Source: Asterochloris sp. CNOR1 (taxonomy: Eukaryota > Chlorophyta > Trebouxiophyceae > Trebouxiales > Trebouxiaceae). From it: a stretch of 64,000 nucleotides of DNA. Positions 1 to 64,000 of the stretch are shown here, piece by piece. The notes below the pieces were generated by a model, which worked only from the letters and a program-made list of their open reading frames with translations, had not been told where the DNA came from and did not search any database. The number at the start of each line of letters is the position of its first letter. Positions within the stretch are counted from its first letter, which is position 1. Position numbers and translations under genes: made by a program. The stretch spans positions 248,001-312,000 of the forward strand of contig OZ017753.1 of NCBI GenBank assembly GCA_963969365.1, written 5' to 3'.

Positions 1-143
1 CTGCAACCACATGGAGTTACAGGTCAATGATAGTTGCAGCCCTTCAATCAGCTGCAGACTCAGAGAGCCAGCCCCATGCTACCTGCACTGGGTGGCCTGC
101 TGCTCTATTGACCTTGTGAGCCTGAGTCCCCACTGTGTTGCAG

Positions 144-1957
144 GGCTCTGGCATATGAGGCCCTGGGCCTGTTTAGGCTGGCCCTGACAGCAGCGCAAGA
201 CGTTCCAGCATGGCCCCAGCTGCAGCTGCTGCTGACCACAGCTGCAGGCACGGCAGGGGAGCCCTTCCAGCAGCTGCCAGCCCTCCATGCCCTGCTGCTG
301 GCAGAGGCTGCCACAGTGCTGCAGCACCCTGGGGCGCTCATGTATGCCACCCTGAACAGGCTGCTGCTGAGAGGTCTCAGCCTCAGGGTGGAGGTGAGCT
401 CGCCTCAGTGCTTGAAACATGCGGGGACTGCTTGTCAGCTGGGCTCCCGTCATTGCTTGAATAAATGCGAGATTGCTTGCCAGCTGGGCTCCCTTCGTTG
501 CTTGAAACAATGTGGAGTTCTTGCCATCTGGGCTCCCCGGCAAAGAACACATCACCTGACATGCGCAAGGACGAAGGTCCTGTGTATGGGTTGCAGCTAC
601 TCCCGGCGGCCAAGGGTGCTGCCTCTGCACTGCCCAATGCTGCAGCATCTTCCCCCGCTATAACGTCATGCAGGCCATAAATTCCCTCCTGCCAGGGTTG
701 TTGCAGGCTGCAGCATGTCCTCCGATGCGGGCGGCTGCATTTCAGTCTGCTGATGTTGCGGCCTCCTGCTGCAGGACATCCCCTTGCTGCAGCAGCTGCT
801 CTTCAGCGGCGGCCAGAAGCACAACCAGGAGCGGGTCTTCATGCTGCGCCTGCTGGCAGGCGGGTTCAGGTGGGGCTTCTTTTCCTCCAGGTGTCCTGCC
901 ATGCATGGTGGCTTCCAACAGTGGGGCCAGTAAGCTGATGTTGGACGGCAATTCAATGAGCTGCTCAAGCACTCATCCTGCCACCTCAAGTTCCAATAGT
1001 CACGGTGGAGCGATCCCCTGGGCATGACTGCCTTCTGGGGTAGATCATACGGCCTTGTGGCAATCTGGGCCAGGAAGAGGCTGCTCCAGCACTTGTTTCC
1101 CACCTCAGTGCTGATCGTGCAGGGGCCCCCTGGATGTGGCTGCCTACCGTCGCCGCACCGTCCCAGAGCTGCTCATGAGTGTGCACGACTCGGCGCTGAC
1201 TGATGCTCACAAGCGGCGCCTGGCCCTGCTGGCGCTGCGCTCGCTGAGCGCGGCCCCAGAGTATGCTTGGCAGCTGGCCAACCGCTCAGGTGAGGGTGCG
1301 CCCCCCATAGCAAATGTTTTCTGAGAGCGGCTGTCACCTGGGGGCTGAACTGTTTGCTTCATGGGCAGGCAGTGGCGTGCTTTGAGCAGGCCTCTGGTAT
1401 GGCTGCCATTATTTGTAGCTGTGCCGGTTACCATCTGCAGTCCTGCACCGGATGACATTGGACGACAGTTGCAGTCCTGCACCAGACAACCATCTGCAGC
1501 CAGTGAGCTGGAGGCCGCCGACATCAGCTTTCTCTGCGCTGCCCTGCAGGGCTGGCTTCATGGCTGGGCACTACTGCTGTCCAGGCACTGCGGCAGGCTG
1601 GTGACGCTGCTGCTGATGTGGGACAGTTGTCCGGCCCCGCTGGCCATGCACATGTGACCTTGGATACCCTGCTTGCGCTGGCCAACGCTGCAGGGAGTGC
1701 TGCCTCCCCAGAACCGCAGGGCATCTTTGTACAAGAGCTGCAGGTGGTGCTGCAGCAGGCTAAAGGTTTGGCAGCAGGTAGGCAGCATGCAAGCCTGCTC
1801 TTACCGTTTGAGTTGGTTGTTGTATGCTGCAGGCTGCCTTGGTGGCAACCTCTGAGTCAGTGGTCCTGCTGCAGGCATTCTGACAGACTCATCATTGCAT
1901 GGGCTCATGACCCAGCTGGAGGCTTGCATGAGGAGGCTGTATCAGAAAAGTCTGTGA
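144..1957 (+). CDS. URB1: URB1/Npa1 (nucleolar pre-ribosomal-associated protein 1), C-terminal part
   Basis: The 3' end of a gene that starts left of the window. Exons by eye: 144-393, 775-869, 1122-1289, 1550-1777 and 1875-1957 (TGA), with phases agreeing at each joint. The peptide has the order of the conserved URB1 C-terminal (NopRA1) domain: a helix ending in NRLLLRGLSLRVE, then DIPLLQQLLFSG...RVFMLRLLAGGF, then YRRRTVPELLMSVHDSALTD, then a helical tail ending MRRLYQKSL. In yeast and animals URB1 acts in the nucleolus in early 60S assembly, around 27S pre-rRNA and its snoRNP factors; that role here is by homology. A TGTAA lies 92 bases past the stop. The gene runs convergent to the amidohydrolase on the other strand. 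Bases 1-143 look like the upstream intron. Least certain is the exact acceptor of the 1550 exon. Confidence 0.8.
406..540 (+). repeat. Three degenerate 45-bp tandem units in a URB1 intron
   Basis: Three consecutive units (about 406-450, 451-497, 498-540) share the core TTGCTTGAA followed by GCTTGYCAGCTGGGCTCCC. They sit just inside the donor of the first exon. They are intronic and diverged by roughly a quarter from each other by eye. Confidence 0.75.
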
Positions 1958-5600: not shown

Positions 5601-8600
5601 TCAGGCCTGACAGCACCACACACAAAACTTCTCCCGGCCAGCTACAGCTCACCGGACCAATGCCAGAAGCCAGGCGCATGTTGCTGCTGGGGCAGTGCGC
5701 GATGCCGATCCCATGGTCTGCAAACTGCTTGATCTCCTTGTCATCAATGACGCAGCAGTGTGCAAACCACACATCGTCCTTATCCCAGCCCACAGACCTG
5801 CAGGCACAGGCTTGCATGAGACAAACCTGCAATTTGTGAGAGGAGGGTAAGCCACTGTTAGGCCACAGAGGGTCCACCTAGGAGAAGGGGACACCAGATT
5901 GGGCACAGCTGATGTCATCTGGCTGGCCTGCTGCCAGCATCTCACCCTGTGGGACACACAGGCACAGCTGATCAGGGGTAGGCGCACCAAAAGCAGCCTG
6001 CCTGGTGTTCGCACACTTTTGCCGTGCCCAGCCCTGACCTGGTGCTAGGCAAACCCAGACCTTGAGCAATTGCTCACAGTGGGCATGCCAAATCGCTGCT
6101 CTAGCTAAGCAAGCTGCTTAGCATCAGTTCACACAAGGTCCCAAATGGCAATCCACAATGGCTGCTTCCGACTTCTTACGCTAGCCAGTTGAGCTGACAG
6201 CACCAATTCAGGCACAGCTCACAAATTGTCCCAAGCAGGCGGTGAAGCTCAAGCTTATACACACTGGCGAGCCCTTCTGATCGACACCACCCATTTGTTT
6301 GCTGTGGATCCCCCAGCAACACACAGAGAACTTGCATCAGCTAAGCAGCAACTGCAGCTCACTTGATGTAGTGCGCTGAACGGCGCCCACCAAGCTTCAA
6401 GCAGATGCTCAGCCACAGCTGTGGCTCACCAAGTGCAGTCCCCCGGGCGATGACAGTTTCTGCAGAAGCCCAGCAAAAGCTGCAGAACATGTGATGCTGT
6501 CCACCTAAGACGCTCATCAACTTGCAAGACGCTCATCACTTCGCCAGATGCTCTTCTGCAGCTGCAGCTCACTTGATGTAGTCCCCTGGGCGGCAGTGAT
6601 AGAATTTTTGGCAGAAATCGATGTCCTCCTGGTTCTCGGCGAGGTGAGTGTGCAGGCGCACCCCAGGGTGCTTGCGTGCAATGCGTGCAGCCTCCTTCAT
6701 CAGGTTCTCTGTCACGTTGAAGGGGGCACAGGGCGCCAGGCTCATGCGCAGCATGCTGCAGGTGCAGGGAGGAGGCTGTTTTTAGCTTGAATGTCGCCAA
6801 CAGGCACGCAGCATTGATGAAGGTCCCCGCCTGGTCGTCCCACGTCAGGACATGGGCGGCGCCGAGCTCATGAGCAACATGCAGCACAAAAACACCACAG
6901 TAGGACAGCTGGTGCTGTTGATGATCATGCCGGACAGCTTCACTGTCGGGGAATGCAGAATGCCGAGGATCATTGGCATCAAAGCGCAGGAGCTGGCGGC
7001 GTCGTGCACAGCAGGCTGTCACGGGCAGAGGGCCTGCAGAAGCTGCGTTGCGGGAGTGGAGTCAGAGCCAGAGGGGACTGGATGGCAGAGGCTTAAGGCT
7101 TGGCATTCACCATATGGACAGCTAAGGTCAAAGTAGAAAGCAGCTGTCACACCAGACGGACGCAGATGCAACCCGTGTCACATGCAACACTGAAGGATGC
7201 ACAGGCATGGAGGCTGAGCTGCAGAGAGAGCAGATCTCCAAAGTCATAGGGGGTGCACATGGTGCCTTCAATTCCCACTTGGATTGCCACCATGTGAATG
7301 TGCATGGCAGCAAGGATGTGTATTGGGCAGCTGGTGCTTGCCACATTTGCGAGCACAGCGCAGTGTAGGCCACAGCTTAGTTGAATGCCATGTTGCAGTG
7401 TCCTGTGCGCCAGTTTGCGCGCCACCAAGCCTGGACGATGGCCAGATCAAGAGCGCCAAGTGTCCCAACATGCAGCACTAATCACGCCCATTCATTAGAT
7501 TCAATCATATTGCCGGAATTTGCAGTTCTGGCGGAGTAGCCAATGCATGCCGAAACGCTGCAAACAATCCTTTCCATGTTCTGCAGCAAGGTATGCATTC
7601 TGCAGATGGCCAATGATGATAGTGATGCCCTTTTGCAATTTGCATTGCTCTGCATACGCTTCATATAAGTGAGGTGTGTCAAGCTGTATTGGTGTGGTCA
7701 CAGAATGTCTGGACAGGGCGCATCACTAGCTTGCCTGACTTGCTACACGCTCAGCATGCAGTCCCAAAGGCGCTGCAATTACTTCATGCCTTGCAGCAGA
7801 GGGCCTGCAGGCACCCCAAGTCCCACACCAAAAGGACCCGCAGTCATCTCAAAAGGACCCGCAGTCCTCTAGAATGTGCAGCAAAGGGCCGGCAGTCACC
7901 CTGGCCCATGCACAAAAGGGCCCGCAGTCACCTGGACTCAATGCTGTCGCAAACCTTCCAAGTCCTCAGAGATATGCCTGTTGTGCCACATTGCTCCTCC
8001 ATGTAAGTGCCCATCATGACCCCACTATACCTGAACTTGGTGTTGTCGTGAAACTCTCCAATCAGTCGCTCCATATCCTTCAGCACAAAGTCCTCCTCCT
8101 CACAGACCTTGTCAGGGGGCATGCCCCCCTTGCTCTTGCTCATGCTCATTGCGCCGCGCGTGGGGTGGAAACGCAGCCCAATCTCCCTGCACAGACGTCG
8201 CAGTGTCAGCTGTGGCTGTGCTGACTGCTAGGACAACTCTGGCAGGCCCTGCTGGCAAGCCTCAACCTACCCGCACTGGCACGGCAGCTGTCAGCTATGG
8301 CTGCTCTGAGTGCCGTCACAGCGTTTTCTTCAGTTCAGTTCAGAGAGGCCTGCTGGCCAGCTCTGAAGGCAAGAGGCAGCCTAGCTGCTGTCTCTAGCTT
8401 GGCAGTACTGGTTCCAGGCCACGCCTTCACTTGGATGTCTGCCTTTTTGGCACCAATCTGAGGCCTGCCTGGCTGTCACAGTTGAGCTGGCAGGGCTGGA
8501 CCAGGCCAGCTTGCTGGAACAGCCTGCACCAGGCTCACACTTGCAGCCCACCTGGCTGCGGCGATGGAGTTCTCCAGCTTGACATTGTTGGGGTAGACGT

Positions 8601-9661: not shown

Positions 9662-10144
9662 GCTGCCCGACTGCAGCAGGGGGTTGCTGGGGTCAAAGTC
9701 CAGGAGAAGAGCAAGGGTCAGTCAGAGTCAGATCTGCACAGCTTCACGGCAATCTTCAATACACAGGGACTGATGCCAGTCACGACGTCTGTGCAAATGC
9801 GCAAGTTGACCAAATGTGGCCCTTCAGGCTACAGGGCTTCTGGTGGCATGCCAATTTCAGCATCCATACGACATCTGGGACTACAGCACTGCTCTTTCCC
9901 GAAGGCAGGATAGCAGGCATTGTGCAAACCCGTGCCCCCAGATGTTCTGACCTGACCAAACACAGCAGCTCTTCCGTCACCAGATGTCTCACCAATGCTC
10001 AAAACTGTAAGCTTACAGAGCCTCGTCAGAATTGATGCATCTTCAAGAAGAGGGCTAGATTTGGCTGCAGCTGTGGGCTATTCCCATTCTTGGAGCTTGG
10101 CGCCAGAGCAGCAGATGCGGGAGCCAGATCACTGCAGATGCTAG
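9662..10144. other. Divergent promoter region of the amidohydrolase and GT64 genes
   Basis: About 480 bases between two divergent start codons. No TATA box or known element stands out. A pyrimidine-rich acceptor-like stretch at about 9676-9705 (minus strand) hints at a 5'-UTR or leader intron for the amidohydrolase. Confidence 0.5.
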
Positions 10145-12915
10145 ATGCATCTTCGGGTGCTTCTGTTGTTTGGCTGGCTTTCGACAGTCATAGCTGTGGA
10201 CAGCAGTATTCACAGACAGCATGGCCAGGCACTCACAGTCACATCATCAGCTGGCAGCCACTGCAGTGATCTGCCGGCCGCCTCCCGTGCGCGACAGGCT
10301 CACCTGCACCCTACGCGCACCGAGGACCAAATCTCTGTGGTGCTGCTGAATTGGCTGAGGCCAGCCAATGTTGTTGAGATCCTGGAAGCCATGGTGGCCT
10401 ACCCAGAGGCAAGTTTTTCTGGAAGTGGCAACTGCTGCAAGCAGGCAGCACCAAACAGACTGTGGTGATACAAACCATATCTGAAACGCCCACTGCATGA
10501 CTGGCCAAGCTTGTGACTATGCTAAAGCTGATTGTCTGATGGCCTGTGATGTTCTGAGAACACTGCTCTGAGCGGCAGGACACGACATGGAAGCTCCGCT
10601 GAGCTGGCTGCGATGCACAGCCGGCAGGGCCACCAAGGTTGGTGTTCATCTGCTGTGCCTGCAGCGCTGAGGGCTGCCGGCAAAACTGGTGCCTGCAGGT
10701 GGGGCCGTGCAAAAGCGCTACAGCACCCTCAGGGGTGCCGTCTCTGCACCACGAGCTTCAATGAAGCGGTCGCGTGCCTGATGCACCACCAGCTGCCACG
10801 AGCTGCTTTGCTCAGGGCTGAGGCCTGCTCATGTTGCCATTTCCTCCCCACTTCCTGCAGGTTGAGGTGCACTGGTTAGGCGGTGTAGGCTGGACCTGTG
10901 CTTGGGCAGCTTCTGTCTGAACACCATGTGCTGTAGTCCGAACACCAGTCTGAACACCATGTGCTGATGCAGCCAGCGGTGCCCCTGCCTGCAGGTGGAG
11001 GGCATCCTAGTCCTGCAGGATTGCAACGACAGCAGTGTGCCCTTCTGCGTACCCCCAAGGCTCACAGCAATGTCAGCAGCGGCTGCTCTGACTGCAGGTG
11101 GTTGAGATCCTGGTCCGGCGGAACTGCGGCAACAGTGCTGCGGCAATCGCGCATCTCAAAGGCTCATGGCTGCCGTGGGCAACCAATGTTTCGCGTTTGT
11201 GCCTGCAGGTGGAGGAGATTGTGGTCATGCAGAACCGCAACGACAGCACCGTCGTGTTTGTGAACCCCAAGGTCAAGCTGCTGGATGGCGTGAGCCTGTA
11301 CGCCTACTGGCACATGACCAGCCGCCTCAAGGGCTGCCTGCTGACGGCCAGCAGCTGGGTCCTGCTGGTGGACGATGACCTGATCCTGTCCAGGCAGGCC
11401 CTTCAGAGGCTCATGGCGGCCAAGCGGGTGCAGCCAGACCGTGTGTATGGTGAGCACACCAGCCTCGCTTGCTCTAGTGTGTCCTGGCGGGCACTGCAGA
11501 TCGTCCTGGCAGCCAAACAGGAGCACCCAGACCGAGTGTGTCGTGAGCATGGCAGGCTGACCTGTCATGTTAACAGCCACAGCAACAGAACTCAAATTAT
11601 CAATCAAGGCTTAGACCAACACAGCGCAGCATGAATGATGACCACAGCAGCAGCTTCTGGCTCAGCTTCATGCATGACAGGACCATGCGCTCCCTGCTGT
11701 GCAGGCTTGTTTGCGAGAGGCTACAACGACAGCGACCCCCACTACACTTATGACCTGGTGGATCCCGGCGAGACACAGGTGTGCAGACTTGTGCCTGAAA
11801 GCACTGATCTGGGCTCCACAAGGCAGCAGTGGCAGACAACACAGTAGCAGTGGCAGACAACACAGTAGCAGTGCATCTCAACAGCGTCTTGGGCAGCACG
11901 CTCCAGTGCGAACTGGGACCACAGAGGGGTAGCACTGAAAAGCGCCAGCAGCAGTGCCCCAGCTGGCGTCTTGGGCTGCATGCTCAGCTCAGGCAGCATA
12001 TATCTAAGCAGCATGTGGGTGAGTGTTTGGCTGTCATTTGAGGCATCCAACCGCTGCCCTGCACCAGGAGGAGCCATTCAGGTTACTGTCGGCAGAGGGC
12101 CTTGTGGTCGGCCTGTTTCTGCATAGCTGTACACAGCGTGGCGCTTGCTGGCAATCCCCTGCCTGTTGCTTGCCAGGTGGCCATTGGGAGGACGATGTTT
12201 GTTGACCATGGGATGTGCCGCTCATTCTTTGAGCTGAGCGGCCTCATGGACGATGTGGCGATGGAGGGTCACACACGCTGGGGAGCAGAGGACATCTTCC
12301 TGTCCCTGGCCGTCAGGGCGCTGTCTGGGCACAAGCCCTATGTGCTACCGCTGCAGCCTGGTGATGTCAAGGACTTGCCGGACCTAGCGGTGGGCATCAG
12401 CCGACACAAAACCCACCTCCAGTGAGCGAATGTTACTCAAGGGTTCAGGGCTCACCATTCGTCCGTGCCGTGAGACTGTTCCCTCATCAGCATGCGATGC
12501 AACTGGAGTCTGCATCCCTACAGAGCTGCCCCAGGCCTGATCATGTGCAGCCGCCCCCCGCCTGGGCTGCGCAGTGTGGTGTCTCATACATGACCATGCT
12601 CAGCCGCCCACTGCCTGGGCTGCCGAGTGTGATGTCTCAAGCTTGACTAGGTGCTAGCACTTGCCCACTGCCTAAGCTGTCCAGTGTGCTGTCTCATGTG
12701 CTGGCCGCTGCAGCGGTACCATAAAAATACACAACATTACTGGAACACGGAACCGCTTAACCTGATCACGATGTGTCCCATGCAGGTTCCGAGACCGCTT
12801 CTTGCGCACTGCAGTGGAGCGGCTCTCCTGTTTCTTCACCAACATCCCGCAGCCAGTCAGCATAGTGCAGCACTTGATGTCCCCAATGCCAGCTGCTGGC
12901 AGCGTGCAGCCTTGA
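10145..12915 (+). CDS. GT64-like (exostosin/EXTL2-type) glycosyltransferase, signal-anchored
   Basis: Five exons, 10145-10408, 11209-11449, 11705-11778, 12177-12421 and 12786-12915, join in phase to 317 aa. Residues 1-20 (MHLRVLLLFGWLSTVIAVDS) form a signal peptide or anchor, so the enzyme likely works in the Golgi or ER. The catalytic domain starts QISVVLLNWLRPANV, has the strand EIVVMQNRND, then WVLLVDDDLILS, a DDD metal/nucleotide-sugar motif placed as in GT-A enzymes of family GT64. It then has RGYNDSDPHYTYDLV, AIGRTMFVDHG, and a late acidic helix with EDIFLSLAV, matching acceptor-site regions of EXTL2-like proteins. The donor sugar is unknown. The first intron is GC-AG. Alternatives are other small GT-A families; the WxRPxN and DDDL spacing favours GT64. 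The gene ends convergent to the RING gene. Confidence 0.65.
10855..11208 (+). repeat. Three relic copies of the start of GT64 exon 2
   Basis: Acceptor-like CTGCAG followed by GTGGAG-type codons occurs at about 10860, 10995 and 11098 before the true acceptor at 11208. The peptides VEGILVLQDCNDSSV (10996 on) and VVEILVRRNCGNSA (11099 on) clearly echo the real VEEIVVMQNRNDSTV. Spacing is 100-135 bp. The copies soon lose frame or similarity, so they look like decayed tandem duplicates rather than used alternative exons. Confidence 0.8.
11490..11562 (+). repeat. Relic copy of the end of GT64 exon 2
   Basis: About 77 bases after the true donor, the peptide ALQIVLAAKQEHPDRV followed by a GTGAGCA donor echoes the real exon end ALQRLMAAKRVQPDRV with the same GTGAGCA. 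Confidence 0.8.
11827..11868. repeat. Perfect 21-bp tandem duplication in a GT64 intron
   Basis: Bases 11827-11847 and 11848-11868 are identical (unit CAGTGGCAGACAACACAGTA plus G). A partial third unit precedes it. Confidence 0.95.
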
Positions 12916-44961: not shown

Positions 44962-45226
44962 TGCAACACAGAGACAAATTCCTAGGCGCTGTGCCCCCCT
45001 GTCTTTCTGTTTGCGAATGTGCCAGGCTGCTGAGCTGCAGCCAACTGGAGGGCTTGTGCCTCTCATGAGTGACTCTGCAGCTGGCATGCTGGGTGCAGCA
45101 CCCTGATAACCTTTTCATAGATTCCAGGGGCCCTGACAAGTCATGCTGATCAACCCTGCTTGAATAATTGATTTGACTGCATCAGGTGTCAGGTTGGCTG
45201 TCTAGGTTCCCGGCAATGGTGTATCG
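44962..45226. other. Spacer between LRR-cyclase and GH43
   Basis: Tandem-oriented genes about 265 bases apart. Nothing distinct inside; it must hold the poly(A) site of one and the promoter of the other. Confidence 0.5.
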
Positions 45227-48200
45227 ATGGTCATCCAGCATGTAGGCAGGCATCACAAGGGACAGCGATTGAGAGATCACGTGAAGAGGCCTTACCTTTT
45301 GACTGTTGTCTTGGCGCTCAGCAGCATCTGGGCACTGATCAGTGTCATAAGGGCAGTTCGATTGTGGTCAAGAGGACAGCAGCAACCGGCACAGCAATTC
45401 AGTGCCCTGCCAGGTGCAATCCTGACATCTGCATTGTATAGCATGCAGCATTCGACATTGCCATCTGCAGCATCTGACAGACTCAGCCCAATCCAGGTGA
45501 CAGCTTTGAACCTGGAAAGGTGTGGCTGGATACAGATGGAGATTTGATCCAGGTACAATGTCGCTCAGACGCCCCTCATTAGTGCCTGGCAGCCTGTGCA
45601 CGTGACATTAGCCTCGATGCATTACTGGCACAGCAACTAGTGCTCAGCCCTGGCTGGAGAGGCAGCCGGCAGCATCCAGCCTGGGTTCAGCGGCTGCTAG
45701 CACTTCTTTGTAGCCCTGCAGGCTCACGGGGGCGGCGTCCTTCTGCATGAGGGGCTCTACTACTGGTATGGTGAGTCTCTGCCAGCACGACTGTGCTCAA
45801 TGCAAGGCAGGGTTGGATATGCAGGCACCGAGTGGCAGCTGGCAGGCCTGCGGCAAAGGGCAAGCTGCTTTGTGGCAGTTCTCGGGCCTGCTGGGATTTT
45901 TAGCCGACTTATAGCGGCTGGCAGGCCTGCTTTGGTGTCTTGCAGCAGCTTTGAGGCCTGCTGGGAGTTCAGTTGCGTCCAGGACACCAAAGTCCTTGAT
46001 TGGAAAGGCTGACCGGGCTGAACGTGCACTTGACCATTGAAGGATGACCAACATGACATGTGGGTGGTCTCATGTGCAGGCGAGAACAGAGGAGGCAAGA
46101 CTTACACTCCTTGGGTGCCCGGGTGAGCGCCCGCTTCTCCCGATCTGTCCAGTTTGTTGCTGGGAAGGGGACTTGCCCACACGCATGTGCAATGACATCA
46201 GCTTGCATGCGCTTGCTGCCCAATGCCTGGCCATGGGTGACTCAAAGTGCAGCAAGCAGCTGCATCGTATGCATGTACGGGCAAGGCACTTCTGTACCAA
46301 GCAAGGACAAGAAAAGAACACAAGTGGCTACCAGAAAAAGCTTCCAAGCACTGGCTGCAGAAGAGATCCAGGAACGCCGCAATCTTCTGCCACGGCAGTT
46401 GCCCACCAAGCAGCTGCTCAATTTCTTATCTGGCTGCGTTGCCACAAGACCTATCTGCCATGCGGCTGTAATCTCTGTGTTGGCTGTACCTTCAAGCACC
46501 AGGCTATCTCATTGTTAGACTTTTGATGAGCAGGTACTCTACAGCCAGAGTGGACGTTATTGGCGTGAGCGTGTATGTCTCTCGTGACCTGCTGCACTGG
46601 CAGTATGGAGGTGCGCCCTGGCTTTATGCATGCCTGCCTTCTTTCGCAGCAAATCCTTGCAGTCTCTGCCGCCCTGCCCTGCCTCGCGACTTGGGGTCTG
46701 GCTGTGTCATCCTGCCTGGCTGCAAGCCTCGCAATAATCACATTATTGTCATGTAGCAGCCCACAGCTGGGGGCACATCATGCTCGAGAGAAGGGTCCCA
46801 CCTTGGCCTTGCCTCTCATCAAGGAGGCAGGCTGCATTAGACTGCAGATCAAAGGCAGCACCAACCTATGTTCCCACTTAGCTGCAGGCCTCATGGTCAA
46901 GGAACGGGTCCTGTCCTGAAGGCATGAGCTGCAGCAGCAGTGCGCGGCTCGAGGGCAGTACTGCTCTGTCTGGCTGCAGGCCTTGTGCTTCAATAGGGAT
47001 GCATTGTGACCTTGCCTGTCACCAGAGGAGCTGGCTCCAAGAGCGCAGATAAAAGCGGTGCTGACCTGTCGTCCTGCCTGGCTGCAGGCCTCAACTTCAA
47101 GAGAAGGTTTGATCATGACCTTGCCTCCCACGGCTACAGTGGAGTGAATTTCAAAGGACCAGTCACCCTGCCTGGCTGCAGGCCTTGTGCACAAGGGAGG
47201 TTGCCATTCTGGCTTTTACCTCCCACAGGAGGAGCACGCAGCTGCAGAGCACCGATGTGTAGCAGTGCCACTGTGTCACCCCACCTCGCTGCAGGCCTCG
47301 CACTCAAGGGAGGGTCTCATCCTGACCTGGCACCCAGCATGGTGCTGGAGCGCCCAAAAGTAATTCACCACGATGGCACTGGGAAGTTTGCCCTCTGGCT
47401 GCACATCGACAATGCTAATTATACCAAAGCCACTGCGGGCGTGGCTGTGGCAGACTCTCCCCTTGGCCCATTCACCTATCTGGGCAGCCTGCAGCCTTCT
47501 GGCCAAATGGCTCGTGACATCACTGTGTTCAAGGTGGGTTCTGATGTCAGGTGGTGTGTCAAGCTGCAGAGCCTGGCTGAAGGGTCTTGCTCCAAGCTTC
47601 TGGTGCTCCACATGCAGTGCTGTGCCCAGAGCACGGCTGCTGTCAATGTCTGCACACAGGGTTGAAGGTCCAGACAAGCTGCAGGGCTTAAGTGGCCTAC
47701 TACAAGCCTGCAAGCCTGCAAGCCTCCCGTCTGCAGTCCTGTGCCCAAAGCCTTTGTCAAGCCCTGCATGGACGGCCAGAAGCACTGTGGAGGTCTCTGA
47801 GCAGCAGGCAGGCTCTTACATGCATGCTCAAACCTGTGACTGGGTGGTGAGGCGGTCACTGTGCGTGAAGTGGTGTACTGCTGTGCCTGTGCAGGACACA
47901 GACGGCACTGCTTATATCATCTTTTCTTCTGAGGACAATAAAGTCATGCACATCCACCGCCTGGGTACGGTGAGCCATTGCTGTGTTGCATATGCAGTGT
48001 ATTTGCAAGCTGTGTATGTCAATAGATGCTCGTGCTTGGTGTCCTGCTTGTGCAAGCAGAGCTATACCTCTGTCAGGCTGCATCAAGCCCTGCAGGCAGC
48101 GCCTCTTGTGGGTGTTGAGCCCAGAGCCAATACAAACCAGTTTGCATGGCCAAGCCAGCATGCTGAAACCTCTGCAACCTCTGGCCTGGCTAGCCTCACG

Positions 48201-50061
48201 GCATGCTGACCTGATGTGACCATGGGGCCATGCACAACGCCGTCCTGTGCCCTGGCCTGCGGCAGGCACCTGGCATCAGAGCAAGCCTTGAGAGTGGAGA
48301 CCTGACACTCAAGCGCCTGAGCAGCTTGTTCTTTGCTGCAGGACTACCTCAGCATTGAAGGCACGTACAACAGGTGGGTCTGCCTGCACAGGTTGCTTTG
48401 CCCCTGAGGTTGGCACCTAAGTGGCGTGTTGTGGTGCCAGATGGTGCCTTCTGCTTTGCTGTGCCGAAAGCCGGTCAGGGTGCGAGACAGCTTGATTAGG
48501 CAGGTCAGCAAGACATGTGTGCCATGCGTCAAGAGGTAGCTGTGGAATAAGCTTTGCAAAGATTGCAGGAATGGGGTCTGGTGGCCTGAAGGAGTCTGTC
48601 TGGATGCACGACCCTGCTGCCATCAGCATCCCCTATGCCCCTGTGCCAACTGGTGCTGAAGCTGGCTGCCTGGATGCCTGACGCCCGACTGTGCAGCTGT
48701 CGTCAGTACCCACAGCGCCAGCCAGCCGGCCCTCATCTGGAGCGCTGCTTGGCACCTTGAGTGCACAGCAGTCGTCATGGGCAGCAGCCGTCTTGCTGAG
48801 ACCTGACCACTGCCTGCCTGTTTGCAGAGTGTTCATCCAGCAGAGCAGAGAGGCGCCCGCCATATTCAAGTACAAGCAGGTACGTGCTGCAAGGCTGCAC
48901 CAGAGATATCTTTGTTGTACATACAAGGCAAGAGCTGATCAAGCAGACCGCCCGTCAGAGCTGCACTCATGTTCCATGACCTTGCACCTTGCACCTTGCA
49001 GTGGCTCATTGTTGTCCCATGCTCCGTCTTCTGACCACAGACCTGTCTTGCCCTTGAAGGCTACAGATGTGGCTGGTGCCTGTGTTCCAGTCCTGATCTG
49101 CTCTGCTGGCCTGCTATTGGCGCCATGCCTAGAGCCCCAGCTCTCTGCTGACCTGCTTTGCTGGCTTGCAGTGGTGTCTCATGCCTGATATCCATGTCTC
49201 TGTTTGACCTGCTCGCTGGCCTGCAGCGGTACCTCATGCCTGATGCCCGTGTCTCACTGAACACCTGCTTTGCTGGCTTGCAGTGGTATCTCATGGCCAC
49301 CTCTGGCTGCACTGGCTGGGAGCCCAACGCCCTGGAGGTGTTTTGGGCAGAGTGAGCTGCCCAGTGCTGCACCAATTCCTGCTTTATCTCGTACTGCCTC
49401 CTCATACAGCCACAGGGCAACAATGCTGCCGCTGGTCCAGCCTCCACCCGTAGCACCCTTGCAGCTCGCCGCTCAGTGCTAGATTCTGCATGAGGGCTTG
49501 CCCCGAGAGGTATCTTATCATCAGGCCTCTATGCTCTGGTGCCGTGACCCACATGCTGCTCTGCATGGTCTGACGGCTGCCAGTGCAAACTGCAGCCACC
49601 CCATGAGTTCCTGGCACAGCCTGGGCAACCCATGTCAAGGCCACTCCAGCATAGATGCAGCCTACACCTTCTGGTCCCAGCCCGCCTTTGTCCTGCCGAT
49701 TGCTTTCCACCCAGGGCAGTACATTTTCATGGCGGACAGATGGCAGCCCACCAACCTAGCTGAGTCCAGGTGTGCAGCACAAAGATGCTTGAGGTGTTCC
49801 AGCAGATATTGACGCTGACTATTGTGGTATTCCCCTTGGCTGAAAACGCCACTGAGCAGATTGTTCTCCTGATTTGCACAGCAGTCAGAGTTGCCATGCA
49901 GGTATGTGTGGCTCCCCATGTGGGTTGAAGACGCAGAGCCCCAGTCCCAAGGAGGAAAATTATCCTCACCTGTCATCGTCACCATTCGATGGGAGGATGC
50001 CTGGCAGCTGAAAGACCTTGCTGACGATGATGCTCAGTCTCACAATGCCTTGAGACAGTAA
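45227..50061 (+). CDS. Type II membrane GH43 glycosidase, like plant Golgi exo-beta-1,3-galactosidase
   Basis: Twelve exons join in phase to 403 aa: 45227-45413, 45497-45552, 45722-45770, 46080-46122, 46534-46610, 47295-47533, 47895-47969, 48342-48373, 48828-48879, 49284-49351, 49596-49769, 49902-50061. A short basic N-tail precedes one membrane helix (YLLTVVLALSSIWALISVIR). The catalytic propeller matches Arabidopsis GH43A/B closely: VWLDTDGDLIQAHGGGVL, YYWYGENRGGKTY, ARVDVIGVSVYVSRDLLHW, MVLERPKVIHHDGTGKFALW, HIDNANYTKATAGVAVADSP, ARDITVFKDTDGTAYIIFSS, QQSREAPAIFKYKQWYLMAT, SGCTGWEPNA, QYIFMADRWQP. In plants these Golgi enzymes trim beta-1,3-galactan of arabinogalactan proteins; substrate here is inferred. 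TGTAA lies at 50218, 157 bases past the stop. The exon joint at 49351/49596 is phase-consistent but least conserved. Confidence 0.9.
46711..47294 (+). repeat. Five relic copies of the acceptor and start of GH43 exon 47295-47533
   Basis: The motif CCTGGCTGCAGGCCT recurs at about 46715, 46880, 46970, 47079 and 47171 before the true acceptor at 47292-47294; spacing is 90-165 bp. In the true reading phase, copies 4 and 5 still encode LNFKRRFDHDLAS and LVHKGGCHSGFYLP, against the real LALKGGSHPDLAPS. Copies 2 and 3 soon reach stops. Confidence 0.85.
49095..49283 (+). repeat. Three relic 55-bp copies before GH43 exon 49284-49351
   Basis: Units starting near 49095, 49149 and 49205 repeat ACCTGCTTTGCTGGCTTGCA followed by WCLM or RYLM codons. 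The true unit starts at 49262 and leads into WYLMATSG. Period is 54-57 bp. Confidence 0.9.
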
Positions 50062-50217
50062 GGGATGTGATGCCCGCAGCTTTATGTTTTTGTATCTGTG
50101 ACCAAGTGAGCATATATTTGAGGAACGTTCTGCCAGTCAACTGCACAGCCTTGGGCCTACCAGGCCAAAAGTGAATTGATGCACCCATGCCCAGCTCAAA
50201 GCACCAGTGTTGCTTGC

Positions 50218-50222
50218 TGTAA
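50218..50222 (+). terminator. Candidate TGTAA poly(A) signal of GH43
   Basis: TGTAA 157 bases past the GH43 stop, inside the 191-base gap to the convergent neighbour. Confidence 0.35.
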
Positions 50223-50252
50223 AAGTGCAGCCACTGTTGGACTCTGAGAAGA

Positions 50253-51431
50253 TCAGTCAAAACCAGTTGTGTGCAAGCATCTCCAGAGCAGGGGCACCAG
50301 CATGAGCCAGACAAAGCAGAAGCCTGAGACGCCTGAAGTTATGACCCTAAGGTGGGGAACGCTGACGGAAGCAGGGCGGGCGGGAACAATGTCCATCTGT
50401 GCAGCAAGGAAGACTCCAGGCAGGAATATGTCTCTGAGCATGCTGACAGGGGCCTGCAGCGCTGCTCTGTACAGTCTGCATGCCAGCGCCACCCCAGAGG
50501 CCAGCCCGATGTACTGCAGGCTCGAGCCCCACAGCTGCAGCCCCTCTGCGCAGACTCGAGCTGCGGGAAGGGCAACGGAGCTGAGCCCTGCAAGGGCTGC
50601 ATCCCTCCAGTGCAGCGGGGGCAGGCGTAGCAGCAACTGGCAGGCCAGCAGGGCAGCAGCCCACATGGCCGAGTTCCTCAGCATGAGCAGGCTGCATAGC
50701 TCGGCCGGCCGCCGCTGCAGCGCAGCCTGCTGGGCGCAGCGGTGGGCTACCTGGGCCGCAGCTGGCAGCAGGAGGGTCCAGAGCAGCGGCAGCCTCCTCT
50801 GCTTGGCCGCTGCTGCTGCAGCCATGGCAGCGAGCCAGGCGAACAGCACTGGGGCACCTGCCGCAGCCTTGCACAGCAGCTGGGCTGCCTGCTGTAAAGT
50901 GGAGCCCTCAGCGCCTGTGCGGGCTGAGGTCTGCTGGCGCGGCCAGCGCGGCGCACGCTGCCTGCTCTGTTGGCTCAATGGCGCTGCTTTGCCGCGAGAC
51001 AGTTTTGGAGTTCGCGGCACCCGGCGCCTGCTTGCAGGCGAACCAACAGGAGCAGGCTGCACGCTGCTGTCGTCTGCAGGCAGATCAGCTCCCACCTGCT
51101 GCTCAGCTGCTGCATCGCCCTGCTCCGCTGCTGCATCGCCCTGCTCCGTGCTCCCAGCTGCAGAGCTTCTCAGGGAGGCGCTGACCGAGTCCATCTGTGC
51201 CATGAAATCCTGGAGGCCTGCGCCCAGCGGTGATCTACAGGAAGGGGCTAGCACTATCAAATGTGGCTTTTCAGTGCAGCTTCTGGCCTGAGAGGGCTTC
51301 ATGGCCCTTGCCTGCCATGCTTCATGCTCTGTGACTCCTCCTCCTGCTCTGACTGGGAACCTTTGGCTCTCCTGAGGCGTCTGCGCTGCAGCATCACCGT
51401 CTAGTGGTGTCGTTTCTTTTTGCTTCGCCAT
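50253..51431 (-). CDS. Intronless multi-pass membrane protein, function unknown
   Basis: A single open frame of 392 codons from ATG to stop, unusual beside intron-rich neighbours. Residues 1-185 are low-complexity and hydrophilic, with a small tandem repeat EQGDAAAEQGDAAAEQ and basic patches (SRRRVPRTPKLSRGK). From about residue 190 on there are several hydrophobic helices, for example VLFAWLAAMAAAAAA, LLWTLLLPAAAQVA, MWAAALLACQLLLRL, and a last one GFCFVWLMLVPLLW at the C-terminus. I count five or six possible membrane spans. No motif was recognised. A short GC-AG intron in the N-terminal third is conceivable but does not keep phase. The complementary strand also has a long frame (50269-51291), but it lacks sensible composition. 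The 11-base A-tract just upstream of the ATG lies in the 5' flank. Confidence 0.6.
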   Translation of the reverse strand: MAKQKETTPLDGDAAAQTPQESQRFPVRAGGGVTEHEAWQARAMKPSQARSCTEKPHLIVLAPSCRSPLGAGLQDFMAQMDSVSASLRSSAAGSTEQGDAAAEQGDAAAEQQVGADLPADDSSVQPAPVGSPASRRRVPRTPKLSRGKAAPLSQQSRQRAPRWPRQQTSARTGAEGSTLQQAAQLLCKAAAGAPVLFAWLAAMAAAAAAKQRRLPLLWTLLLPAAAQVAHRCAQQAALQRRPAELCSLLMLRNSAMWAAALLACQLLLRLPPLHWRDAALAGLSSVALPAARVCAEGLQLWGSSLQYIGLASGVALACRLYRAALQAPVSMLRDIFLPGVFLAAQMDIVPARPASVSVPHLRVITSGVSGFCFVWLMLVPLLWRCLHTTGFD

Positions 51432-53055
51432 TGACCGAAGTTTGACCGGCCCTGCCGGGCAAAAAAAAAAAGAGCTTGTGTTGGTGCTCTCTGCCTCCCT
51501 CGCCAGTCCCCCTTGTAGCTCTTCTGAATATTGTTGGAGCCTGAGGAGTCCTCAGGTCCAGGCAGACGGCCAATTGCCGCTGCCGCAGTCCAGGAAGCGC
51601 AGTCCCATGTAACTGTGTCTCTCTAGTACCCGCAACATGTGCCCCACAAGATTAACAGTTTGGTGTGAATGACTTCAGGGGCCTGCAGTCTGGCGCAAGG
51701 ATGCCAGTGCTGACAATATCATCCTCGTGAAAAAGAGGAACACACAATGATTGCTCCTGCTGTACCAACCCATTGCAAGCAGCTGTTTGAGCAATGTCAG
51801 TAAGCAGAACTGCATGGCATGCATGTGCCAAATGATAGCATGCCCAGCACTCTGTTGAGCCTGCGGTGCGGCTTGCTAGGCACTGCTGCAGGCAGAAGTC
51901 ATCCATCCGCACAGGACAGGCAGGTGCAGTGCTACTGTGGTTTGTTGGAGTTAAAGGCAAGGTAGACATGTATGTTCAGACAACCAGCAAGAGGTGCAGC
52001 TGCAAGCATGTCAGGCCTTGCCCAGCAGAGTCACAACACTTGCAGCAAGGAAGACATGCGCATGCAAGAAAGACGGCTGGCAGGGCACAGGCGCAGCCAT
52101 TCCCACGAGACCAGTGCGCCAAGTGAGGCTCAGCTGGGCAGCAGACTGGGCGCCGCTTGTCCCCAGCTGCACCTCACTGACCACTGATACTGCCACAACC
52201 TCAACTGCTGGGCAGTGCAGTTGACAAGAGGAACGACAGAAATGTAGTTTAGACAGCCGTCATGCATGAAGTTTGTCAGGACATCGTGTATGTATACCCC
52301 AGGTCCCTGAGCTCCTGTCATGGCTCTTGTTGTGATAACAGCAGTCTGCTTCGAGGGCATTCATGTGAAGCTTTAGTTTGGCTTGCCACAAGGGACAACA
52401 CTTCATGTCTGTCAGAGAAGGGTAATTCGTGGCTAAGGGGTCGACTTGAAGCAAAGCAAGATTGTTGGAGCAGGGGCCAGCAGCAGCATGAGTAAAGGGG
52501 CCAGAACTGTCTTGTCAGTTGAAGCCAGATCATGAGGAGTCTCTGGCATGGGAGGTCGGTGTCTACCTTGGGAGATACAGGGAAAGAGTGGGGGGCACGT
52601 TGTTCTCCCAAGCAATGTACCCTGAATTCAGGCTGATACATGCGTGGGGTGCGCATTCCAGGATGAGTCAGAGGTGCCATCTCAGCAGTGATTAAGTTTG
52701 GGGTGCCCATGGCAGGCGAGCAGCCTGGCCAGAAGTCCATTCTCTAAAAGTCTAAGCAATGTCTGGAACCCTATGCAGACAAAGGAGCTGCCCACCTTAC
52801 AGCCTGCTCTGATCTGTGCGCTGTGTGGCAAAAACCCTTGGCAGAGTACTGAGGCAGGGTCTGTACGTCCCCTGCCTTATGCTGGTCCTGCTTTTAAGAC
52901 TGCAACTGCCTATTGTTGCCTGTGACTCTGGAGCTGAGGGTGTTTGGCCCACCACATATTGGGGCGTAAACAGCTCACCACCTCAGAGGGCACATTGGGG
53001 GCTCTGTCCAGGTACTCCCTGGGTTTCAGGGGTGTCCTTCCACAACTCCAACCCC
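51432..53055. other. 1.6-kb gap without a supported gene
   Basis: Between the start of the membrane-protein gene and the stop of the F-box/LRR gene, both minus strand. It contains a run of 11 A (51463-51473), mixed short frames on both strands, and at about 52930-53010 a decayed tandem copy of the last F-box/LRR exon end (compare 53068-53150). A TTACA (TGTAA on the minus strand) near 52796 may serve as poly(A) signal for the LRR gene. Confidence 0.55.
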
Positions 53056-56000
53056 TTAGGAGGCTGTGGCTGCTTGGCCCACCAGCTCTGGAGGCACAAC
53101 AGATGCCCCCTCCAGGGTGGCACCAATCTCGACTGTGCGCAGCCCTGGCAGGGACCCCACTAAGGCATCCACTCCCTGCAGGGCAAGCAGGGGGCATTGC
53201 CTCAACAGTGGGGGGCTGGTCAGCGGCACCCAGGTCACATCATCATACACATGACCAGCAGCCAGCAGTGGGCAGGGCTTGCCCTGCACCAAATGCGCGA
53301 CAGTCGTGAGCTCTCTCTTGCAGGAAGGTCATTTCACTGGGCTGACTTGGACCTCAGATTGACAGGCCCTGCACATGTACCTGCCTGCCGCAATGCTGTC
53401 TGTCGCAGTCCCAGCAAGCCAGCTGGCAGCTTTTGTGCTTGCTGTCTACACTGAATGCCCTACTCCCGACTGGCTTCATGCCCCTAAAAGCCGGTAGGCA
53501 CAGCCCACTGCCGCCACAGAGTGTGGGTGCTCAGCCCACCTGCCCTGTCAGCTTGAGATAACTGATTGCAGCATCGTATGCTACAGGGCGAAAATACAGA
53601 GTCAGCTCACCTGCTCTGTCAACTTGGGGCAGTTGGTGATCTGGAGCCGCTTGAGGAAGACCAGCTGGCTCAGGGAGCACAGGCCCGCATCAGTCAGCTG
53701 GATGCCAGACAGGTCCAAATCCCGCAGGCTGCGCAGGCTGCCGAGGTGGCGAGCTGCGGCGTCAGTCAGCTGTGGGTTGCCACCTGCAATGTGCACATGC
53801 CGCAATGAGTCCTGCAGGCTGCGCAGGTGGCATAGGTCGTGCCTCCTGCATTGCTGAGGTGCATGGACAGACATTCTGCAACTGCCTGGCCCGACACGTG
53901 ACTAGGGAGGCAGCGCAGCCGGACTTTACAGCAAGCCGCAGCCAATTACATGCAATCTGACGCCTGCAGCACGCAAGACACGCCCCAGAAGTTGCACTGC
54001 AAGATGGCATAGGTGCAGACATCTGCCAGCAAATGAGCGACAGAGCAACTGCGTGCTGCAGAATGTTTGGTCCAGGCCTGGTAGCAGATCCAGGCCAGCA
54101 AAGCTTGCTCAGCAGCCATATGAGGGATGCCTCCTAACAGAAGCAGCCCTGTGAAGGTGGCAGGCACTGCAGGGAGCCAGCTTCAAGTGCTGCGTGCCGA
54201 TCAGCATGCAGGCCTGGCATAGCTACAGTACCCCTGCTGGTACAGATAGGTCCTCTAGCCAGATCCAACCAGGCAGCAGGCTGCAAGATCAGTGGACTGA
54301 CCTAACTCCAAGCGCTGCATGCCAGTCAGCGTGGTGAGCGCCTCCACGTTCTCATCCCTCAGCTTGCACAGGCTCAGGCTAAGGCTGGTCAGGCTGGCCA
54401 GCGCTGGCAAGGCTGCCAAGCCCTCCTGCAGGGGGCACCAGGCACACGCAGGTGAGGCTCCGTGCAGGACCTCCCTGTACAACTGAGCCTGGCCGGCTAT
54501 TGCTGTGGCAAGGCAGCAACGCTGCAGTTGGGAAAGTACACACGGCAGCAGAACACCTGCGTGACTGTCGCCCCGGCCAGCGTGAGCGCTTGCAGCTGCC
54601 CCATGCCCCTGAGCACGGACAGACCCGATCCCATGTGGGGCGCCCGCGCCCCGCACCCCTGCAGCTTCAGCGTCTGCAGCCGCGTGAGCATGTGCAGGGC
54701 TGCCACCCCCCGATGAGTCACGGCTCGGCAGTAGGTCAGATCCAGCTCCGTCAGAGTGGTCAGCGTGGACAGGGCCTCCACCCCCTCGTCCTCCATGCGG
54801 TCGCAGAAGGCCAGGCTCAGGCTAATCAGGCCAGACACCTGCAGGGAGACCACTGTCAATTCAGGGTTGTGGAGCCCATGCACTCACACAAGGCCAGGAG
54901 AAAGGAAGGGGCCACCCTGGCCAGATGACCGTTGGAGCCTGTTCCAAGCCATAGCTATTAATGTCATATGTTGGGTACTTTGACCCTCGAACTCTCCGAC
55001 TGTGAAGCAGCGCTGCTAACGGTCTTCTCAATCATTGGACAGGACGTTGTGCGATGAGCCAGTGTGAGCGGGATCTTCAGTACCCACCCGGCGCAGGGTG
55101 TCCAGCCCGCCGTTGGAGATGCCGTCCACGCAGCCCATCAGCTCCAGGTGGGTCAGCCCCGACAGGCGCGCCAGGTCGCTGATGCCCACCGTCGTGAACT
55201 TGCAGCAGGCCAGGGTCAGGTTCTGGAGGCTGGTCAGCCTGCAGGCATGGCACACGACCAGCTCACACGCAGTTGCTGTTGCATGGAAGTACAGTCCAGT
55301 GAGCAGCAGCAGGCTAGAGTCAAATCCTGGAAAATCTGGTCAGCCTGTGAAAGGCATACTTGTCACCTAAGGCTCCTGGCACCCATATTGCTCAGCTTCT
55401 CCACCAAGCAACAGCATAGTGTACGTGTTGCTTCAGTGATGAGGTTATGTAGAAAGACAATCCCACACAGTTGCAAGAAGCTTTCTGAGTGCTGCCACAG
55501 GCATCAGGGCTTTTCTTGGGGAGAGTGCAGGCAGTGACAGTATCAACCACACACAGCGGCTGAGGCCACCATTCTGTGCCATGGCCCACATTGCCACATG
55601 TCATGTGTCCGCCGTTGACTGCCTCAGAGCAGTGAGATCAACAGCCGCAGCATGCACAGCAACAGGGTGGGATATGGCAGACAGCGTCAAAAGCAACAGC
55701 GCTGAAGTTTAAGGTGACCTACCTGGTCAGAAGGGAAATGCCCTTGTCCGAAACGCGGTCCACAAAGGTGAGGTCCAGCGTGCGTAAGGGCAGCTTGATG
55801 ATGGCCTGCAGCCCAGCGTCGGTCACCTCCCGGCACACAGCCAGGTTCAAGCTGCTCAGGCTGCTGCAGCGGCGCAGCAGAGACAGGCCTGCATGGGGGG
55901 GCAGGCAGTGGAGTCAGCAGAGACAGGTCCCCAGGAGGGGCAGGCAGCGGACTCGGCAGAGACAGGTCCGCAGGAGGGGCAGGCAGTGAGACGGCAGCAG

Positions 56001-61541: not shown

Positions 61542-64000
61542 TCAGGCCCCATGACCCATAATGTTGACCAGCAACATGTCTCCACCCTGCTGGTCAACAG
61601 ATTGGTACTTCAAGGCCCGCAGCCTGGGCTCTGCCAGCTGGATGGCAGCTGAGGCAATGGGCTTGTAGCCACCTTCCACTGCCTTGCGCAGCTGCTCGTA
61701 GCCTGCATGCATGATCAGTATGTTGAGCAGAGGTGGAGCGGACGTGTCACAACAGCATGACAGGAACAGACACCATCCTGCTGCACCCCTGGCTCTAAAC
61801 CAGGGGAGACATGAATGCACACTAGCTAGCGCAGTGTAAGCCTGTAATCGAGCAGGACATTGTATGAGACATCAGCATACAGAAAGGCCCTGCACAGCAG
61901 CCGCCACACTGACAATTTGCGGACTTACCAGTCATGCAGGCCACAGCTGGCCTCGCCGGCAGCCGCCCTCAGCAACTCAAGAGGTCCCAACAATCTCTGC
62001 GGAAACGCTGACAGCAGCTGACACAACTTGAGCTGATGCAAAGCTTCTCACCCGCTCTGGACATGAGCTTCTTGACTGTGTTGCGCTGCTCCTTGTCGCT
62101 GGCAGTGGCCTGCAGGCCCCTCTGCAGCTCGTCCACCAGCTGGGGAGTCACCCTGGGCAGCCGCAGCAGCTCCTGCAGACAACCAAAATTGGATCACTCA
62201 GTATGGTGCAAGAGTGGCGGGAGTTACCCTGGGCACCCGCAGCAGCTCCTGCAGACAACAGGAGGTTGTGGCCACTCACGTTAATGCAAGTGTTCTTTTG
62301 AGCTGGGGAGTCTCCCTGGCCAGCCGCGGCAGCTCCTGCAGAGACAAAATCTTGACGAGCCCCCCACACTGCTTCTTTTGAGCAGCGAGGCTGACTCTGA
62401 GCAGCCTTGGCATGACCCTAAGCAGCCCCAGCAGCTCTGCAGACAGAGCAAAAAAAGCGCTGCCTCGCACTTGCCTGGATGTCTCTTCAAGGAGAGATGT
62501 AACAAACAACTGCGAGAGATCTAGACAGGACTCGCATGCATCTGCACTATGAAAGCCATTCTGAGCAGCTGCGGCACCTCCTGCAGAACGCAAGTCAGGG
62601 GAACGTTGCCCCTGCAGAGTCAGCCAGCAAACTGGAACATCTGCGTCAGCCCCTGCAGACAGTTCAAAGACATGCCCGCATCTCAGGTGGGTGTTGACCT
62701 CATGCAGTCCAGAAGCATGAGCTGCAGCAGGGGCAATGAGGGTTTTCATAGGCTGATGGAGCAGTGCGTCCCCTCAAAGCCAGATCCCTTAGCAGCAGCG
62801 CAGTCATTCTGGTAGTGCATACAGACAGGCAGAATGAGCTCAAAATGGCGGAAGTTCAAAACACCACTTCCATAGGGGGTTTTCTGGGCTGACCTGTCGG
62901 GGCCCAGGCTGCGTGGCCAGCTGCTGCACCAGGATGTCCCTGATCAGACCCAGCACGTCCCCCTGGTGGCTGCCTGCTGTGCTGCGGGTAGTTGACAGGG
63001 CTGCAAGGCTTCCGCGCAACATGTCAGTGCCAATGAAGGTCTGGAGACGGGGATCCTGCCCAGCCAGGGGCAGCACAGCCCTGCAGTAATTCAGAAGAAG
63101 CATAGCACAGGACCGGTGCGTTCAGTTTCGCAGAAAACATGCACTGCGCTGACCTGCCAATGCCAATCAAAGACTGCTGTGTGTCTTGACAGAAAGCCTG
63201 TTCAAAGACATCCGCCGCAGAGCAATTCCTCACAGGGTGTATCGAGGGAATGCAGGCTGCTGAACTCTGATTGAGCACCTAGGCGCCATCCAGTCAGCAA
63301 GCACCAACAGGAAGCAGTTGGCATGGCAGCTAGTTGCAGGTCCCACAGTCAGCACAAGTACAGGCTACTGCAGACCAGCTGCAGATCACGTGTGGCCATG
63401 ACACTGCAGCTGCTGCTGTGGCAACTGCATCCAGGACCTGCGCCGATAACGAGGTCGGGGGCACCAATGCAGACTGCGGTGGACTTGATGCACACCTTGC
63501 TATCCGATGACACAGCTGTGAATGCGTTGTGGCCACAGCGCATTCACAGCTGTGTCACTTGCAGGGATGACAAACTTCAGAAAGGTGGATGTACGCACAG
63601 ATGCACAGCAGTCACAAGCGGACCTGCAAATTGCGGTGGACTTGCTGCAGACATCGCTGTCCGGCCACCACAGCGCGGCCGCAGCTGTGGCAATCACGGT
63701 CAGGGCTGTGTCGGTGGACGCACGGAACAGCCAGGTGAAGGCACTGTCGCCGCTGTGCGGCAGTGCTACCTTGCCTTTGCCTGCATGCAGAAGAGGGCAA
63801 GGCTCAGCAGGAGCAAAACTGCGAGATGAGCAGAGCCACACCTAGCCCATCATTCCCTCTCGTTGGCACGTCCCCGTATACACATGTGCACTGCCCCACC
63901 TCCTGCTGCTGCCCTCGCCAAAGCACCACATATTCAGATGTTCAGATGCTAAACCTTACCTCCTCCCAGCCGGGCCTCTGCTCCTGCAGCTGCACGAGCA
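61542..64000 (-). CDS. HST: HASTY / exportin-5, C-terminal part
   Basis: The 3' end of a gene that begins right of the window. Exons: 64000-63960 (partial, tentative), 63780-63624, 63080-62894, 62172-62052, 61702-61542 (TGA); the last four agree in phase. The peptide follows the plant HASTY C-terminus: GKVALPHSGDSAFTWLF, then AVLPLAGQDPRLQTFIGTDM, GDVLGLIRDILVQQL, PGPRQELLRLPRVTPQLVDE and SDKEQRNTVKKLMSRAG, against the plant AxREFVSKDM, LVNICREIFIYL, PAPRQVLLSLPCLTPNDLHA and KEQKQLMRSLL (from memory). HASTY is a RanGTP-dependent karyopherin; in plants it promotes microRNA processing and export, in animals it carries pre-miRNA. The final 50 residues (EQLRKAVEGGYKPIASAA) are lineage-specific as far as I can tell. 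Confidence 0.85.
62218..62590 (-). repeat. HST: Four copies of a HASTY exon start with its acceptor
   Basis: The 41 bases spanning the true acceptor (62142-62182) recur at 62218-62258 with about 3 mismatches and at 62303-62347 with about 3 mismatches and a short indel. Weaker copies lie near 62390-62444 and 62558-62588. In phase they read ELLRVPRVTP, ELPRLARETPQ, ELLGLLRVMPR and EVPQLLRMAF, against the real ELLRLPRVTPQ. Confidence 0.93.
63460..63507 (-). repeat. Echo of the end of HASTY exon 63780-63624
   Basis: GCAGACTGCGGTGGACTTGA and the following CACCTTGCTATCCG echo GCAAATTGCGGTGGACTTGC and AGACATCGCTGTCCG at the true exon end (63626-63662). Confidence 0.75.
63508..63557. repeat. 50-bp near-perfect palindrome
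   Basis: Arms 63508-63526 and 63539-63557 are exact reverse complements (19 bp, TGACACAGCTGTGAATGCG). The 12 bases between contain the 10-bp palindrome TGTGGCCACA; only one base pair of 25 fails. It lies in a HASTY intron. Confidence 0.97.

Follow-up and report, generated by a model that had tools for sequence, protein, structure and literature searches.

The locus and its gene models

The window, by which we mean the entire 64-kb stretch of contig OZ017753.1 from the chlorophyte Asterochloris sp. CNOR1 that was analyzed, holds a series of genes whose introns carry short, decayed copies of neighboring sequence, among it the edges of their own exons, in the same orientation and close to their sources. 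The G+C content is 52–61% per 2 kb across the window. Genes were modelled ab initio, without RNA, by a Python gene finder, which returned 15 models with 118 exons, and the curated set comprises 16 models with 110 exons and 94 GT-AG introns (median length 326 nucleotides, nt), 92 of which are at least 60 nt long. Ten proteins, covering 10 of the 16 models, were submitted to Pfam, and eight scored above the curated cut-off, the families being amidohydrolase, fungal-type kinase, DnaJ/Sec63, Hop2 winged helix, ENT, GH43, and two LRR proteins; one of the remaining two gave a weak GT64 match only, and the other no match.

The copies mislead gene finders. Three had been called exons outright, and probably two more. 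The copy-derived predicted exons at 21456–21491, 23240–23272, and 23399–23428 were removed before counting, and the model at 41298–51233 was split in two, with five of its exons likewise removed. The predicted exons 6363–6479 and 62237–62248 also resemble copies and were left in the exon-edge test, the pair list, and the counts of intron coverage and intron gain; skipping 6363–6479, which lies in the amidohydrolase gene, leaves the flanking exons in one open frame. For the codon-position and random-placement tests, 62237–62248 was removed and 11098–11205 was counted as intron.

Exon edges match their own introns

The evidence that introns contain copies of their own exon edges comes from a comparison of the 40 exonic nt at each edge with the adjoining intron, the null being equal-length intron stretches from other genes, at p ≤ 0.01. 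Matches were obtained in 24 of 178 tests, where 1.8 are expected, and the reverse-complement controls gave 2 of 178. Donor edges (10/89) and acceptor edges (14/89) both contribute, with 0.9 expected for each, and their reverse complements matched in 0/89 and 2/89 cases, respectively. The signal fades further into the exon: segments 40–80 nt inward match the own intron in 3/70 and 4/73 tests, and segments 80–120 nt inward in 1/53 and 1/59. The claim of the initial annotation that introns copy their own exon edges thus holds, and matches to the adjacent edge are clearly commoner than chance. Its estimate of at least nine affected genes among thirteen came close, as at least one local repeat pair is present in 12 of the 16 models. 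A significant own-edge copy is present in 8 models and in 22 of the 92 introns of at least 60 nt. Its description of introns as filled throughout with copies went too far: repeat blocks occur in 30 of these 92 introns. They make up 9.6% of the intronic sequence, the corresponding figures being 8.5% for exons and 1.9% for intergenic DNA. Some blocks cross the exon–intron boundary directly, with the copy nearby in direct orientation, for example 21389–21417/21475–21503 and 25703–25754/25880–25931. The sources and copies are as follows.

6348–6449, reverse strand: two stretches resembling the exon end and donor at 6545–6594, amidohydrolase gene
10986–11034 and 11089–11135, forward strand: two copies of the acceptor and exon start at 11200–11248, the second absorbed into a predicted exon
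11480–11549, forward strand: copy of the exon end and donor at 11387–11456 (77%, 70 nt), nearly head-to-tail, spacing 93
21361–21417, forward strand: exon end and donor of the Sec63/DnaJ gene, source of two copies
21475–21503 (93%, 29 nt) and 21512–21547 (81%, 36 nt), forward strand: the two decayed intronic copies of the 21361–21417 edge
23067–23150, forward strand: exon end and donor in the Sec63 gene, source
23213–23278 (86%) and 23320–23380 (77%), forward strand: two copies of the 23067–23150 exon end
23578–23601, forward strand: copy of the start of the following exon (23919–23942) in the same intron (88%, 24 nt)
25460–25514, forward strand: copy of the exon start at 25578–25634, in the upstream intron (78%)
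25880–25931, forward strand: copy of the exon end and donor at 25703–25754 (88%, 52 nt)
32968–33007, forward strand: copy of the acceptor and exon start at 33078–33118 (82%)
33519–33554, forward strand: copy of the exon end at 33264–33298 (86%)
46702–47331, forward strand: GH43-like gene, exon and five intron copies of its acceptor and first codons
46719, 46881, 46973, 47081, 47175, and 47288, forward strand: acceptor-like cores of this GH43-like family
55306–55347, reverse strand: copy of the exon edge at 55202–55241, LRR gene (82%)
55944–56000, reverse strand: copy of the exon edge at 55866–55920, LRR gene (89%), nearly head-to-tail
62138–62587, reverse strand: acceptor and exon start at 62138–62189, with copies at 62219–62259, 62301–62350, 62415–62453, and 62561–62587 (85–95%)

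The repeats are local, direct, and not dispersed

A pair finder detected 67 local direct repeat pairs in the window as opposed to 2 inverted pairs, and 0–1 in five resampled windows; 50 kb of Escherichia coli DNA gave 1 direct pair with the same finder, a comparison that tests the method, as E. coli is no equivalent genome. With several copies per source allowed, 76 direct pairs were obtained, with blocks of 22–69 nt, identities of 77–96%, and spacings of 43–414 nt (5–95% ranges; median spacing 116 nt). The shared orientation that the initial annotation had described is borne out for nearly all pairs, as is the graded divergence, and its spacing of 40–180 nt applies to 46 of the 76 pairs but not to the rest. 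Comparison of the window with itself by blastn (score ≥ 40) agrees, with 26 direct and 0 inverted hits within 400 nt. Similarly, 65 of 1548 tiles scored at least 34 against the following 500 nt; the reverse complement of that stretch gave 0 such tiles, and far places gave 0.3. One of the only two inverted pairs is a short inverted repeat with 17-nt arms at 63508–63557.

That many introns are affected could be taken to indicate a dispersed element, such as an introner or another transposon, that bears exon-like ends. Within the window, this is contradicted by the exact 18-mers that occur repeatedly, 50 of 50 of which have all their copies inside 700 nt; because no exact 18-mer recurs at a larger distance, no dispersed element was found within the window. 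Among repeated 16-mers, 7 of 92 have copies farther apart than 700 nt. Furthermore, beyond 400 nt only one direct and one inverted blastn hit were obtained, compared with the 26 direct hits at closer range. We regard a dispersed element as extremely improbable. As had been proposed, the copies do not belong to one transposon family, and local same-strand duplication is supported by their direct orientation and proximity. The two outcomes named as refuting the initial finding, edge matches at chance level and descent of all copies from one dispersed family, were both looked for and not found, since edge matches exceed chance and the 18-mers are local.

Repeats of the same kind occur away from exon edges. 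Tandem Repeats Finder reported 15 arrays in the window, and examples of arrays confined to introns are:

406–524, forward strand: intron-only tandem array, period 45
12548–12697, forward strand: intron-only tandem array without exon involvement, period about 53

Exon edges are not demonstrably preferred

To judge any preference for edges, blocks with the observed lengths and spacings were placed at random, and those genic cases were considered that leave a copy outside exons. Of the genic repeat families, 21/34 touch an exon, where random placement gives 48% (p = 0.13), and at the level of pairs the count is 33/64. Thirteen families are intron-only and three are intergenic; in a further five, both copies fall within predicted exons. 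A preference for exon edges, as implied by the initial annotation, is hence not evident, and the edges are not demonstrably special or targeted. The repeats are direct, local, and undispersed, they show no edge preference beyond random placement, and the copies are free of coding constraint, as detailed below.

Copies decay without coding constraint

Mismatches between exons and their copies are evenly spread over the three codon positions (58/356, 64/364, and 64/354 in 30 pairs), and indels within blocks are mostly of 1 nt; for these two reasons, the copies do not look coding. This bears on a rival reading in which selection maintains the copies as duplicated exons or splice decoys, for which it can be said that the gene finder took three of them for exons, that the acceptor core is the best-preserved part of the family at 47 kb, and that the projected splice dinucleotide is retained in 6 of 11 exon-only hits, although the last number decides nothing. 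Against it stand the lack of codon-position bias and the frame-breaking 1-nt indels, and it is exon ends that were copied, not whole exons. Moreover, intron-only repeats, with 15.1% divergence, are as decayed as the exon-edge copies. Selected exons or decoys are therefore a very unlikely explanation.

The ratio of third-position to other divergence is 1.07 (0.80–1.40), while a ratio of about 1.6–1.7 would be expected, by our own estimate, if silent sites of the exons drifted like introns. This suggests that exon silent sites have changed little since copying. They need not be slow sites in general, because haplotypes of the alga Auxenochlorella are reported to differ by 3.44% at four-fold sites and by 4.02% in introns (PMC12633428), values that may or may not carry over to the present genome.

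Possible intron lengthening, with no sign of intron gain

Intron gain by tandem duplication of AG|GT-containing segments, which the initial annotation had favored, requires that the donor-side edge of an intron matches the acceptor-side edge of the same intron. Duplicated AG|GT-containing edges do exist within their own introns. However, the donor and acceptor edges of one intron matched beyond chance in 1 of 92 introns only, and this intron borders on a miscalled mini-exon, itself one of the copies, so that the single case is an artefact; the in-register identity of the two edges is 12.3 of 40, as opposed to 12.0 for unrelated edges. The pattern observed is that a single edge has been copied into an intron that already existed, with no sign of new introns made in this way, and we consider intron gain very improbable as an account of these copies. 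The accompanying proposal that introns lengthen fared better: the median length is 455 nt for introns with a block and 257 nt for those without. This difference is consistent with lengthening, but longer introns also offer more room for blocks.

A proposed mechanism of local duplication and its difficulties

In our best reading, which we hold to be probable without being secure, local same-strand duplication is frequent, exon edges are bystanders, and selection filters what happens in exons. Segments of tens of nt would often be duplicated locally and on the same strand, presumably by replication slippage or tandem duplication. Events that fall wholly within exons would mostly be purged by selection, and those within introns would be retained. 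Events that cross a splice junction would be retained as well, because splicing at the outer donor or acceptor would leave the coding sequence intact; the outer splice site would be the one used, and the intron would merely become longer and house a dead, decaying copy of the edge. Points in favor are the locality and almost exclusively direct orientation of the repeats, the share of exon-touching families (21/34, with 48% from random placement), the 13 intron-only families, the even spread of mismatches over codon positions with mostly 1-nt indels, the 16 of 76 pairs in nearly head-to-tail arrangement, with a block that takes up 0.6 or more of the spacing, and two families of regular arrangement. 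The first of these, at 47 kb, has six cores 92–162 nt apart, and most of its unit can be aligned with MAFFT; the second, at 62 kb, has five members, and both are array-like, with roughly regular spacing at 46.7–47.3 and 62.1–62.6 kb. A further fit comes from two tandem repeats located in DNA that is coding or probably so, as their spacings of 21 and 54 nt are multiples of 3.

Several observations weigh against this reading. In 60 of the 76 pairs, the block does not reach 0.6 of the spacing, and homology beyond the blocks is largely missing: none of 112 flanks of 30 nt was homologous at p ≤ 0.01, and none of 24 intron-side flanks. With 60-nt flanks, 2 of 80 were homologous at p ≤ 0.01; at p ≤ 0.05 there were 11, slightly more than the 4 expected. 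As the simulated power for 60-nt flanks is 0.86 at 30% substitution, 0.52 at 36%, and 0.07 at 45%, duplication of whole units followed by 30% decay should have been detected. Within blocks, mismatches amount to 40/334 in intron parts and 200/1113 in exon parts, so that the intron parts have not diverged more, which speaks against exon constraint as the sole reason why the match is still visible, although blocks are selected for similarity. Copies that would be young are scarce: among the 65 pairs whose block measures at least 25 nt, only 1 is at least 95% identical, or 1 of 37 families, whereas steady birth and decay would give 20–30%. Finally, intergenic pairs make up 4 of 35 non-exonic pairs, where 37% are expected; by families the count is 3/16 (p = 0.19), so that the deficit is marked by pairs, is not significant by families, and has no firm explanation.

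Two ideas on block geometry found no backing. Constraint on exons as the reason for the shortness of the blocks is unsupported by the mismatch counts of intron and exon parts, and flank homology at 62.2 and 47.1 kb, apparent by eye, was not supported by the tests.

Since the flanks look mostly unrelated, either the spacers have been heavily turned over, or short patches alone were copied. The latter could occur by short-patch template switching, in which the polymerase shifts to another site of the same strand, copies 25–60 nt with possible errors, and switches back, so that a bounded copy, possibly mutated from the start, is left at a distance. This would account for blocks that fall short of their spacing and have unrelated flanks, and for the near absence of almost identical copies (1/65). 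The third codon positions, being no more diverged than the others, place most of the change on the side of the copy, which again fits. Yet 16 of the 76 pairs and the two families look head-to-tail, silent sites may simply be constrained, and the missing young copies may be an effect of assembly: the longest exact repeat is 28 nt, no exact repeat of 30 nt occurs in the window, and assembly may have collapsed identical repeats. The scarcity could also be read as instability of identical repeats, as an old burst, or as mutation of the copies at birth. On balance, we judge template switching to be rather unlikely. A stronger version, in which error-prone same-strand short-patch copying yields bounded 25–60-nt copies mutated from birth, is a main source of intron lengthening, and supplies dead exon edges as potential splice sites, is unlikely. 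We retain frequent local duplication with exon edges as bystanders as the more probable reading.

Further observations in the window

The motif CCTGCAGG occurs 39 times in the window, with 8.2 occurrences expected from dinucleotides, and CTGCAGG occurs 98 times, with 33 expected; the acceptor consensus, which CCTGCAGG resembles, may be the cause of its excess.

Tandem repeats that keep the frame lie in open frames at 40594–40696 (54 nt, forward strand) and 51099–51152 (21 nt, reverse strand), the former being placed in an intron by the gene model. At 50256–51551 on the reverse strand, a 432-codon open frame is apparently an intron-poor gene amid intron-rich neighbors, for which the finder chose a doubtful forward-strand model. 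In an LRR gene, three exons within 36954–37421 start just past the acceptor with a nearly identical LTGTIP-coding start; these successive introns at one repeat position may reflect an old internal duplication, perhaps with the intron carried along. An LRR protein matches F-box/LRR structures in the PDB. The Sec63-like protein has one distant match in viral_contigs, a DnaJ-like relative on L001:5001–5270 with 34% identity, and no relative of the ENT-domain protein was found in genome_contigs.

Significance and comparison with known systems

Dead exon edges could act as fossils of intron lengthening, and each pair may record one event because the copy degenerates next to an exon that persists. 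With many such pairs in a genome, the fates of junction-spanning duplications would become countable instead of being argued from single cases, whether a longer intron, a new intron, or a shifted splice site. Single events of this type are already known (PMC4974935). We recognized no report of dense exon-edge copies in introns in the open-licence literature, which does not establish their absence from print, and the passages seen of PMC3446292, PMC6652019, PMC12633428, and PMC3488318 contain no description of such copies.

According to PMC4974935, the potato RdRp gene underwent a direct tandem duplication that took in portions of an intron and of the exon after it, and a new intron, supported by RNA reads, arose there. 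Our repeat blocks resemble this case in that they span an exon–intron boundary, in the same orientation and close by, but they differ in that decayed copies lie in a standing intron and no new intron is seen. The tandem-duplication model of intron gain likewise shares the local tandem duplication of AG|GT-containing sequence within a gene, whereas its mutual copies at both intron ends are not present here (1/92). Internal gene duplication, for which Gao and Lynch (2009) are cited, has duplication within genes in common with our findings; here, however, the copied units are pieces of exon edges instead of complete exons or introns, and they are dead. Minisatellite-like arrays, lastly, are also local and direct with units of tens of nt, but in 60 of the 76 pairs of the window the blocks span less than 0.6 of the spacing, and exon edges are touched by many.

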